This document shows positions 54,590-59,740 of a DNA stretch of 64,000 nucleotides, in pieces. Position numbers and translations under genes: made by a program. The stretch's first letter is position 1. Every line of letters begins with the position of its first letter. The stretch comes from Hydractinia symbiolongicarpus (Eukaryota > Cnidaria > Hydrozoa > Anthoathecata > Hydractiniidae), in assembly GCF_029227915.1 (NCBI RefSeq), contig NC_079887.1, forward strand, positions 22,751,650-22,815,649, read 5' to 3'. The notes beneath the pieces were generated by a model. The model saw only the letters and a list, made by a program, of their open reading frames with translations, searched no databases and had not been told where the DNA came from.

Positions 54590-55425
54590 AGTGAAAGAAG
54601 TGTACGGCATTATTGCAATACTTATGGTGTTACAAGGATATCCGACAACGAACTTGATCATATGGTAGAAAACTTTGTTCAACAATACGGGTATGGATAT
54701 GGACGAGCTATGATGCAAGGCAGCATTCGCTCCGTTATGGGTGTGACCACTGGGGGAATATCACAGAGGCGCGTTGCAAGGTCTTTAAGACGTGTTGCTC
54801 CTAACGAATACGACGCAATATCACGTGATATGATGGTGAGGACAAATTCAATACCATACTATACTCTATATTTTAGCTACAAAGTCCATATGGACCAAAA
54901 TGAAAAAAATTGACAAGCCTTTGGCTGCACTCACGTTGCATTAATTGACGGCTGCTCACGTATGATTTGCGACTACGCATCGATGGAAGTCAAGAACCCT
55001 ATTATTATTTATATGAACTTGTATATTGTCCAGCCTTAATAAAATGCGGACTTTGAGAGCAACTTAGGGTGGATCATGGTCAGGAGTTTGTACTTTGTAT
55101 TTTTGTCCAGGAGCTTAAAATGGTATCGTAGTTGTCAAAATAGACAAGCCTGCGAAAAACGACATCAACTAAAAATAACGTCATTGATAGATTTTGGCCA
55201 GAAATGAATTCGCGTGTAAATTACCCGATGAAACGTGCAATGATTAGAATAACTGAAAAGAACGAATACGATATGCCCAATCCCGTTTCAAAGTACTGCA
55301 TTTCTTGGGTCACGTTATACATGGTAGCCGACGCAGCACGTCATTTGATAAATTCATGGAATCACCATGGGGTAGCAGGTCCAATCAAAGTAAAATTAAG
55401 AATTAATTTGTCGGAATATTTATAA
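54590..55425 (+). pseudogene. Broken integrase-core (DDE) transposase
   Basis: The frame opens near 54590 with LGSSERSVRHYCNTYGVTRI. It continues through GYGRAMMQGSIRSVMGVTTG and SQRRVARSLRRVAP, and through YKVHMDQNEK, in which the D is the likely first catalytic residue. After an in-frame TGA at 54912, the same frame gives CTHVALIDGCSRMI (a second D). Later, LRVDHGQEFVLCIFVQE matches the D/E region of integrase cores. A further frame gives NSRVNYPMKRAMIRITEKNE and CISWVTLYMVADAARHLINS. At least two stops and a frameshift break it. The family is one I know from repetitive integrase-like proteins in marine invertebrates. The recognition is from memory. Confidence 0.75.
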
Positions 55426-55721
55426 AAATCTAAACGCTAACAAGAAAAATATAAGTTTAACCCACTGTCTCTCGTTATTAAACACTCTTTGGTTTTGTTG
55501 CAGAGCTAAGCCAGCGAGCGAAGCGAAGCCCTTTTGCTATTTAAACAAGCAAAAATATTTCTTACCAGGGAACTTTTTTAAAACATTATTCAGGTGTCCA
55601 CTTATGACCTTCAGTCCACTTCCGCTATAACCTCCAGATTAAAAAGTATTTTACATACTGGCGTATTTCAAAGAAGATTTTTTTTCTTGCTGGGTCTAAA
55701 GTGACTTTTTGGCGCGAAAAA

Positions 55722-55795
55722 GTATACCGAACATGATGGTGACATTAAAATTTTGATTTTTTATCACCTAAATGTCAATTTAGGCCAAAATTGAT
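55722..55795 (+). repeat. Palindromic flank repeat, left copy
   Basis: AAAAAGTAT, then GATGGTGACATTAAAA, and TTTATCACCTAAATG are shared with 58072-58135 in direct orientation. The core can fold on itself (GGTGACAT versus TCACC). The two copies bracket the TTAA-flanked element at 55842-58065. Confidence 0.75.
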
Positions 55796-56254
55796 CCGAA
55801 ATTAAAGCTATTTTATTGTCGACAAAATTTGGCACATTTAAAGGGGACCTCCCACTTCAAAAAAACTTTTTCTTGTATCGTGGATAATGGTGACTTATTA
55901 AAGAATTCAATAATTATTTTGAACCATTCCTTAGTATAACTTAGAAATATTGCATTCTTTCTTACCATTTTTAACAAAAGTGCTAGACAGTAATGGCGGT
56001 CTTCCTCTCCAAAACGGTCTAGTGCAGCGAATGCGAGAAAAATGTAAATAAATGACGTAGAGCCGGCTATGAAGCAGACTGCCTTTGCGGAATTAAACAA
56101 CCCCCTGTTTTTATAAAGGAAATGTGTTCATGGCGCGCCGCGGGTTCCTATTTTTTCGAATAAAAAATTATTTTAAAAGTAAAAAATTTACAAAATTTTC
56201 TTGCAATATAACGAAAGACGTGGCAAAGTTTCGTAGAAAGTTAACTTTTTAAGA

Positions 56255-57050
56255 ATGGATGCGTCTTGCGCTGCCGTAGGCTGTTCAAACCATAGAAAAA
56301 GGAATCCGGAATTATCATTTTTCCAAATTCCGCGTGATAAATCTACCGCTGCTACTTGGATAGCAAACATGAAAAGAACTGATCTTCCCAAAATCTATTT
56401 ATTTATGCAAGGAGCACTTTCAAACCAACTGTTTTGATAAGTCCATCGATTTAAGAAATCAACTAATGAAAGGTAAGGATAGTATACAACGTTTTTTCTT
56501 TGTGTTAGTACAGTTACTTTTTTATTACTAGAGGCGCTGTTTAAACATGCCATCGAAACGGTGAAGAATTACAGGAGCAATTTTTGTCTATCATACACCA
56601 CATCACCAACAAGCATCCCTTTCCAGGAAACAAGTTTTTTAAGAAGTGCGAACACGACAAATTAAACGAAAATATTTTTACAACCTACTTGGAAGTGTTT
56701 CATTCATTAAAAATTCGTTATATGCCGAAAAGTATATTTTACGAATATGAAAAGATGATATCGGGCGTGCAATCAGCTGCTTTAGATCATAACCGTAACA
56801 TTGATAGACCGCAGGTTTGTTCTTTTTTTTTATCTTAGAGCACTACCTGTTTTAATAAATTGCCTCAACTTTCAGGTCCACAAAAACATCAAGGAAGGAA
56901 TACCGATCCCGCGGTTTATAATTTCTTATTAAAAACCGTCGAAACGATTCGTTGCAAAGAAAGTCAAAACGGAGAAGTCATATCACTACTTGCGAGATAT
57001 CGCCTGATATTTATTATCGCTCGCAAAGTAACAATGAGGAGGATAGGGCA
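56255..57050 (+). pseudogene. THAP-domain transposase-like gene, broken
   Basis: Exon 1 (56255-56472) starts MDASCAAVGCSNHRKRNPEL. It has the C-x4-C pair, the FFQIPRDKS segment and the W of THAP zinc fingers. A one-base loss in an A run near 56390 shifts the frame, after which CKEHFQTNCFDKSIDLRNQL supplies the C-x2-H of the finger. Exon 2 (56532-56814) encodes HHITNKHPFPGNKFFKKCEH, then LEVFHSLKIRYMPK and GVQSAALDHNRNIDRPQ. These are motifs of a repetitive THAP-linked protein family that I recall from fish and invertebrates. Exon 3 from 56876 gives PSKRFVAKKVKTEKSYHYLR but is broken by stops. The gene sits just inside the left end of its element. Confidence 0.75.
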
Positions 57051-57326
57051 AGTCGATCGGTATGTATTGCTCTCATTAAACGATCAGACCTAAAGAAATC
57101 ATTGAACTTCACACTAAATATTCACGCATGTAAGACGGTACTCAACATTTACGTTACACATTTTTATAAAATTACTTACATTATTATTTACATGACCTAC
57201 CTTGTCGGGGAAAAAAACCGGGGTTAGCTTATTCAGGAAAAATTAATAGTCGAGCCACCAGCCCTCAAATTTACTCACTTTTCCCGTTTTCCCTTATATT
57301 TATGTTTATCGGACACAATCGAATGT

Positions 57327-57970
57327 TCATGACAACTCCACTTTGCTTCCTTGAATAGCCTCCTTGAAGCCAACGTAACTATCATTAGGAGATAGGAACT
57401 CTCGTCTAATTCTAGAGGCACAAGATGGGATAACTCGCCGTATTTTTCTCTCTGTGCGAACATGTACACACCAGGGGAAGTGGCGATAAGCAGCATACCG
57501 ATATGTTCTACAAAAAAAGTTTAGGAATAATAATATTGATGTTATGAAATCTGAATAATATTTACATACTAGTAACTTACAAATTGGATGCATGTCCTTT
57601 GTTTGTTAGAAAGGTACTCTCTCTGTCGTGCATGCTAACCAAAGTTGTCCAAAGTGCGTCTTTTAAAAGGACGATGTATTTGAAGTTTTTTATGTTCAGT
57701 GATACATTTCTTATCTAGAATAAAATGATAACTTTTTACATTAGGATAAATTGCGTAATAATATCATCCGCGTTGTTCCCTGGCATTTTTGCCTCTTTTG
57801 ATACACGCCGCTTCTCTTATATCAAAAAGGCAAAAATCCATGGAAAAGAGAGTGCTAATAATACTATAATTACCTTTCATCTCTGTCATCTGAGAAATTT
57901 CTAACTCCCTGCAACATTTGCACTCACACTCTCACAGCATCCTCTCACACTTCTCACAAGAACACCGCGA
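57327..57970 (-). pseudogene. P2X7 ballast-domain (P2RX7_C) protein gene, broken
   Basis: Three minus-strand exons with matching phases: about 57970-57874, 57714-57581 and 57507-57327. Exon A gives SRCSCEKCERML, a TGA, then ECECKCCRELEISQ, the metal-binding cysteine cluster of the domain. Exon B gives KKCITEHK, then after one extra A in a six-A run, NFKYIVLLKDALWTTLVSMH. Exon C gives TYRYAAYRHFPWCV, IRRVIPSCASRIRREF and SYVGFKEA, matching the P2X7 C-terminal region (AYR, LPSCCRWRIRKEF, YSGF). There is no P2X channel domain, so this is a stand-alone ballast protein, as found in many invertebrates. It starts just inside the right end of the element. The original role inside the transposon is unknown. 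Confidence 0.75.
57781..57841. repeat. Hairpin in the P2RX7_C pseudogene intron
   Basis: GGCATTTTTGCCTCTTTTGATA is followed, after a short loop, by TATCAAAAAGGCAAAAATCC. The arms of about 20 bp pair with one bulge. It is similar in form to the AACCTCG fold-backs. Confidence 0.6.
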
Positions 57971-58071
57971 TCAATCGGGAAAGGAATTAATAATCATTGA
58001 ATTCGTTATCCACAGCAGATATGTTTTCGATGTAAGCAAAGTGTTTTTGAGGTGGGAGGTCCCTTTTAACA

Positions 58072-58135
58072 AAAAAAGTATGCAGAAAAAGATGGTGACA
58101 TCAAAGTTTAGATTTTTTGTCACCTAAATGCCATT
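58072..58135 (+). repeat. Palindromic flank repeat, right copy
   Basis: This is the direct counterpart of 55722-55795. It has AAAAAAAGTATG, GATGGTGACATCAAAG and TTTTGTCACCTAAATGCC. It begins a few bases outside the TTAA of element 1. Confidence 0.75.
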
Positions 58136-59740
58136 TAAGAAAATGAAAGTTTCAATCACGCGACTTTCAACCATGAATGATAGGCTGTATTTTTTGTTAG
58201 CAGAAATTGTAGAATTGGGTCGTATTGTGGATGTTTCATAGTTGTGCATTTTTAATAGCGAGATAGTTTTGCAGCGCCTGCATCTTGTTTATTTTTTAAA
58301 AGCCAAGATAAGTCTTCAAAAGCTTTATTTAACTAATTGGAAAAGTAAAGGTGTTTCCACCAAAGTTTTCGAAAGTGAATGTATGCAGAGAGTTAAGGTC
58401 TACCCAAATGCCTGCAAGATAGTCTTCGAAAAAAAAATTTCCACAACAATACTTAAGAGAAAAACAAAGACGCTCCACTATATATAAATAATGACAAGAA
58501 CGAAATTCTTTTCGCTACACTAGACACGCCAACATAGAGAAATATGATTTCAGAATCACTTCAAAAAAACGTAAATTCTCCTATTACCTGCTTCTTATTT
58601 GTTTCCGCGCCATAAGTGTACATGATTCTTTTTAACGAAGTTTGCTGTTTGTGACAGTTCTGGTAGTATATTTTTTAACTGCAGCTATTTCTTTTTTTGA
58701 ACAATTAAGATCGTATATTATTTTTTTTAATTTGCTTTTTCTCACTGAGTGACTTTCTTATACACCGTTTTTGTTTGTTTGTTTATTTGTTTGTGTTTTT
58801 TGGGGGGAGGGGTACTGAGTTACTGAATTTCGCAAATTTTAGGTGGGGCTTGTGGTTTTTCTACTTCCTACAGTCAGTTAACCCCAGACTGACCCAATGA
58901 AAATTGAAATTTGGAGGAATTTTTCGCTCAAGAAGATCTCACAAATCAATTTTGAAAAATAACTGCGTAGTACGTAACGAATATTATTGCCTATCTGAAT
59001 ACAATTTGATAGACAGCTTTTTGTAAACTTTATTCGCGAGGTAGTTTGCGTGTATCATACGTCTTGGTTCTCTTTACACTACAATAAAAACATTTATATT
59101 TTAGATTACTCAAACAGTGCCAACGAAACGCTGGCGGATAGTAATATAAAGAAATATTCCTTAACAAATATTGTAAAAAACTTTAAATATGCTTGCCGTT
59201 AAAGAAAATATTTAAAACTCCCTTTTCTTCTACCCTTTTCTTTGTAATTTAACTTAGTTTAGCGAACGAAATGTTATTTTTACATAATTCTTTGTAACGC
59301 GTTTATGCCGTTTGCACTTGCTAAAAAAACATGCAGAATGCAACAGAAGTGCTCTGCCACCTTGACTTCTTTCGCAAAAAGAAAAAAACCCCGGGGCGAG
59401 GTTGCCTGGGGACTTGTAAATTGTTATAAAAATTTTCGCTTGCGAGCATAGGGGATCTCTTTTCCCGCTCCGCAACCCTTTATATATTGATTTATTAAGT
59501 TAAGGATCCTGGGTTTGGTAGTATTTTTCGGTTTGTCTTTGGTCCCAGGATCCGGGGTCTCATTTATTTCACATGCTTATAGCGCGGGAAATATCCTGAA
59601 ACTGCTTTGAACCAGTTTACAGCCATCTTTTTAAAACAAGATTGTGTCGAAATTAGGATTCGTATAATACGAGAAAGAATTTATCCATCTTTATCTTTAG
59701 AATCCTCATCAAAAAGGAAATATTATATTAACCTAGCATT
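58136..59740. other. Intergenic stretch upstream of RAN
   Basis: No gene was recognised. A fold-back-like block (CCCCGGGGCGAGGTTGCCTG) lies near 59390-59412, and a palindromic GGATCCTGGG/CCCAGGATCC pair near 59503-59552. The RAN promoter should lie in the last few hundred bases. Confidence 0.45.

Follow-up and report, generated by a model that had tools for sequence, protein, structure and literature searches.

How does a gene for the P2X7 ballast domain (P2RX7_C) come to lie beside a THAP gene, between inverted ends and two TTAA tetranucleotides, in the genome of the hydroid Hydractinia symbiolongicarpus? The locus was recognised in the window, by which we mean the whole stretch of 64,000 nucleotides that was analysed (C13:22751650-22815649), and genome searches were made in the 481-Mb assembly. 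A preliminary description of this DNA took it for a Kolobok-type TTAA transposon carrying P2RX7_C as a cargo gene, an identification that is correct, the same plan being found both in a relative from this genome, here termed L059, and in a published lineage (PMC9587614). The segment at positions 55842-58065 is a DNA transposon of 2,224 bp and almost certainly represents a dead, internally deleted Kolobok copy of the Kol0 lineage, the complete form of which encodes a THAP-DDE transposase and a second protein, KolX, in convergent orientation. Its placement in Kol0 is based on the KolX gene and on motifs.

The Kol0 lineage was described by Kojima and Bao in 2022 as encoding a DDE transposase together with KolX (PMC9587614). 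According to that paper, KolX resembles residues 476-595 of human P2X7, zinc cysteines included, and P2X7 is itself a fusion of a P2X4-like gene with the KolX of a Kol0 Kolobok, a link that is described there as not pointed out before. The cargo gene, which the preliminary description did not know from the literature, had therefore already been published, and categorical novelty was rejected since both the cargo and the origin of P2X7 are stated in that paper. The further suggestion, that a transposon could explain the spread of stand-alone ballast proteins and the fusion to a P2X channel, is supported as well, the P2X7 fusion being in print (PMC9587614). In our literature search for a link between Kolobok or KolX and P2X7, no report besides this one was recognised among the papers listed. 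The Hydractinia elements provide independent support for the published transposon origin of the P2X7 ballast domain, and place near-identical, open-frame carriers of it in a hydroid used in the laboratory.

A TTAA target-site copy stands on each side, at 55838-55841 and 58066-58069, as had been claimed, and the inverted ends are 28 bp each: the left terminal repeat (55842-55869, plus strand) reads 5'-AGGGGACCTCCCAC and the right (58038-58065, minus strand), which was placed by repeat search and by the ends of other copies, reads 5'-AAGGGACCTCCCAC. With the TTAA included, the arms at 55838-55869 and 58038-58069 span 32 nt and are 91% complementary, their 29 matches out of 32 lying above the best arms in each of 60 Markov resamplings of this 3.2-kb region, which reached 22-26 out of 32; the inverted ends first noticed by inspection thus stand. 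The termini are AG on the left and AA on the right (minus strand), and both these and the duplicated TTAA agree with the Kolobok superfamily, for which 5'-RR ... YY-3' termini and a C/DxxH motif between the second D and the E are given (PMC9587614).

It had also been proposed that empty sites be aligned to confirm the TTAA duplication, and insert-free sites were indeed found. A query made of the joined flanks, with the insert left out, gave at least 88 genome matches (40 of 1,468 candidates were scored), the first 40 of which cross the junction without an insert, their alignments starting at query base 18 or 20 and ending at 272. Six of these 40 were aligned as empty sites, and the junction holds TTAA once in four (L064-L067) and ATAA in two (L062, L063). 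The flanks themselves (55717-55783 and 58073-58139) belong to a dispersed host repeat with a unit of about 128 bp and many genome copies, the period being calculated as the spacing of 2,356 minus the element and one TTAA. Directly left of the element, at 55144-55425 on the plus strand, lies a fragment of an integrase core (Pfam rva_4, PF24764, E 2e-6), which may be left over from a different mobile element.

Kolobok transposases are known to bear a THAP domain, and the left gene of the window copy, which had been described as a THAP gene reading inward, is confirmed as such by a plus-strand match to PF05485 (E 2.6e-8, 34.9 bits against a cut-off of 23.9), although its frame shifts near 56403. 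The match covers profile positions 1-44 of 87 and lies in a THAP exon that probably extends from 56255 to 56472, with a GT at 56473; the CxxH pair of the C2CH zinc finger is found only past the frameshift, where the other frame, at 56403-56471, matches the THAP exon of L059 (E 0.006). An intron would separate this exon from position 56536, at which a C-terminal part of the Kolobok transposase begins (56536-56823, plus strand; tblastn with L059 residues 420-552, E 2.3e-12). Within this part lies the counterpart (LEVYHS / LEVFHS) of the residue presumed to be the last catalytic E, and a further C-terminal remnant, containing a stop, follows at 56912-57001 on the same strand (tblastn, L059 residues 558-587). 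Of the presumed catalytic residues, the copy has thus lost the regions of both D and kept that of the E, and stops interrupt what remains of the transposase.

The right gene lies on the minus strand. Its last exon (57357-57509) is open and matches P2RX7_C (PF20478) with E 1.3e-4 and 22.3 bits, slightly under the cut-off of 23.5; compared with L059, it matches a KolX exon at E 1.8e-9. Two further exons were recognised by eye and their limits are approximate: a middle exon at 57594-57709, read in frames 2 and 0 with a frameshift near 57690, and a cysteine-rich (zinc) exon at 57872-57970, in frame 2, which translates to RCSCEKCERML*ECECKCCRE, the asterisk marking an in-frame TGA at 57934-57932. 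No Pfam profile matched the cysteine exon by itself. The spliced P2RX7_C gene reported to run inward from the right is upheld as regards the domain match on the minus strand, and the accompanying statement that its exons join in phase is not supported, given the TGA and the frameshift. With the THAP frameshift, the loss of both D regions, and a stop and a frameshift in the P2RX7_C gene, we regard the window copy as dead; it could at most move by means of proteins made elsewhere.

The family has further copies in the genome. The element as query gave at least 74 genome matches (40 of 77 candidates were scored), in several cases more than one from a single copy, and among 20 loci chosen from these matches THAP exon sequence was found in 13, the P2RX7_C tail in 11, the cysteine exon in 11 and the transposase C-terminus in nine. 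Both ends were recognised in seven loci (L009-L012 and L016-L018), of which L009 is a composite and L017 has a left end that starts only at element base 18. The expectation that genome copies encode both genes is borne out to the extent that six of the seven retain both the THAP exon and the P2RX7_C tail, in whole or in part, and fails in L018, from which the tail is absent. Across the 20 loci and the window, 19 ends were recognised with at most three mismatches; TTAA precedes 13 of them and is absent from six, two of which are the ends of L016, where ATAA stands on both sides. At L009 (C13:24280600-24286000), sequence nearly identical to the right flank of the window copy adjoins the inner right end and is followed by a second element fragment, an arrangement that is nested or duplicated.

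The complete plan is seen in L059, where TTAA and 29-nt inverted ends bound about 4.1 kb. One strand carries an open transposase frame of 633 residues and a THAP exon (PF05485, E 3.9e-9), the other two P2RX7_C exons. The transposase contains, in the right order, the motifs GDGRCD (from residue 293), VTDR (359), DVWH (382) and LEVYH (508), from which the catalytic residues were assigned by motif only, as a D in each of the motifs beginning at 293 and 359 and the E in that beginning at 508, with DVWH as the DxxH between the second D and the E. L059 has near-identical copies on several chromosomes, the comparison extending over 2.5 kb. Two other loci carrying KolX were studied alongside it. L061 (4413-6193), a derivative of 1.8 kb, carries KolX exons between ends that likewise start with TTAA-AGGGG, and its transposase match extends over no more than 40 residues. 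L060 belongs to a separate family and has frames for KolX on one strand and for the transposase on the other; TTAA-flanked inverted ends were sought in 9.9 kb of it and not found. The search for inverted ends at P2RX7_C loci covered these three, and such ends were found in L059 and L061. A second gene with similarity to the P2X7 ballast, as expected of Kol0, is thus present in these three loci and in the window, PF20478 being over the cut-off in all three relatives and slightly under it in the window.

The domain is abundant in this genome. A search with PF20478 gave at least 150 exon-level matches over the cut-off (150 of 465 candidates were scored), of which one gene can yield several. From the 150 scored matches 30 P2RX7_C loci were taken, and transposase or THAP sequence (E up to 0.01) was found in 28 of the 30, which are not independent, at least ten being copies of one family. 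In the remaining two, L037 and L058, no transposase or THAP sequence was found in the 3.4 and 3.2 kb examined; each is 97-98% like a family member with transposase (L036, in which it is weakly matched, or L057). Three matches on contig C6, at 11542348, 11547338 and 11552328, are spaced by exactly 4,990 bases, which suggests a tandem array of one element.

Could the P2RX7_C exons instead be a host gene or pseudogene that a THAP transposon entered, or landed next to, by chance? The window copy alone, decayed as it is, does not allow a judgement, L060 shows no inverted ends in its 9.9 kb, and NCBI gives an intact Hydractinia protein (P0001) the name 'P2X purinoceptor 7-like', all of which would fit such a view. 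Residues 11-171 of P0001 are, however, encoded exactly in L030 (contig C11), where the gene adjoins transposase sequence, which indicates that the gene so annotated is a transposon gene and not a receptor. More generally, the P2RX7_C gene lies within inverted ends both in the window and in L059, its exon-level matches number at least 150 and include near-identical multi-kilobase copies, and transposase or THAP sequence accompanies it at 28 of 30 loci. A host P2RX7_C gene, contradicted by L059 with the gene inside its ends, was therefore rejected as extremely improbable. An equally slim chance is given to the element being a piggyBac, another superfamily that targets TTAA and in which a few families bear a KolX-like C-terminus (PMC9587614). 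Those piggyBac proteins lack most of the conserved cysteines (PMC9587614), whereas the KolX relatives aligned here keep W-C-x-C-x2-C and CC; the ends are 5'-RR (AG/AA), a THAP domain is present, and the L059 transposase has DxxH between its presumed second D and E. Its single Pfam match is to Mutator PF20700, and the test for a piggyBac transposase, applied to L059, was negative. With ends, THAP domain and transposase motifs all differing, piggyBac identity was rejected.

A third reading, which we consider quite unlikely but less so than these two, is that the 2.2-kb form is a stable two-gene non-autonomous element, encoding a THAP-only protein and KolX, that was amplified as such. Several two-ended copies of about 1.8-2.6 kb do retain THAP and KolX sequence. 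Against this, the limits of the deletions vary from copy to copy, L023 keeps more of the transposase, and the genes in the window are broken. We thus return to a decayed, internally deleted derivative of an element with the plan of L059. In the complete form the THAP domain would bind the element ends, the DDE core would cut and join at TTAA, and KolX may act as an accessory protein in transposition.

Compared with Kol0 as represented by its type element, Kolobok-1_XT (PMC9587614), the Hydractinia elements share the TTAA duplication, the 5'-RR ends, a KolX that resembles the P2X7 ballast and, in L059, a DDE transposase with DxxH as judged by its motifs; the window copy differs in being deleted and mutated, while L059 shows no detectable difference from the plan as outlined in that paper, in the main text of which the term THAP does not occur. 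The ballast domain was described across animals by Rump et al. in 2020 (PMC7016195), and the stand-alone ballast or ZCD proteins of invertebrates reported there are like KolX in having the same domain, in their zinc cysteines and in keeping R546 and R578. They differ in number, with one or few (<10) genes per species against the at least 150 exon-level matches in Hydractinia. In a tick protein noted in the same paper, the cysteines are preceded by a 'TAHP' domain, by which THAP is probably meant; the main text of the paper contains no instance of 'transpos'. Compared with the cytoplasmic ballast of the P2X7 receptor, KolX of L060 matches residues 469-595 of P2X7 chains in the PDB (E 2.5e-12), but has no channel part, and its gene lies beside a transposase.

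Conservation within KolX was assessed in an alignment of ten rows, comprising four of seven homologues and otherwise exons or frames of the Hydractinia genome; P0001 (identical to L060 bar a few residues), P0004 (cut short) and P0007 (without the first cysteines) were left out. The W-C-x-C-x2-C and CC motifs are nearly invariant in the ten rows, the exception being a row that holds the second exon only, and all eight rows that cover R546 and R578 have counterparts of both. The P-element THAP transposase requires GTP. This, together with the retention of the two arginines, led us to the idea that KolX gives guanine-nucleotide sensing to a THAP transposase, in which case the nucleotide site of P2X7 would derive from a transposition cofactor. 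Both arginines belong to the guanosine-nucleotide site of P2X7 and are retained outside vertebrates (PMC7016195). The near-identical, open-frame Hydractinia copies would make the idea testable. We hold it to be unlikely, as P0007 lacks the R546 counterpart as well as the first cysteines and KolX of L060 does not retain the remaining contacts of P2X7 with the nucleotide.
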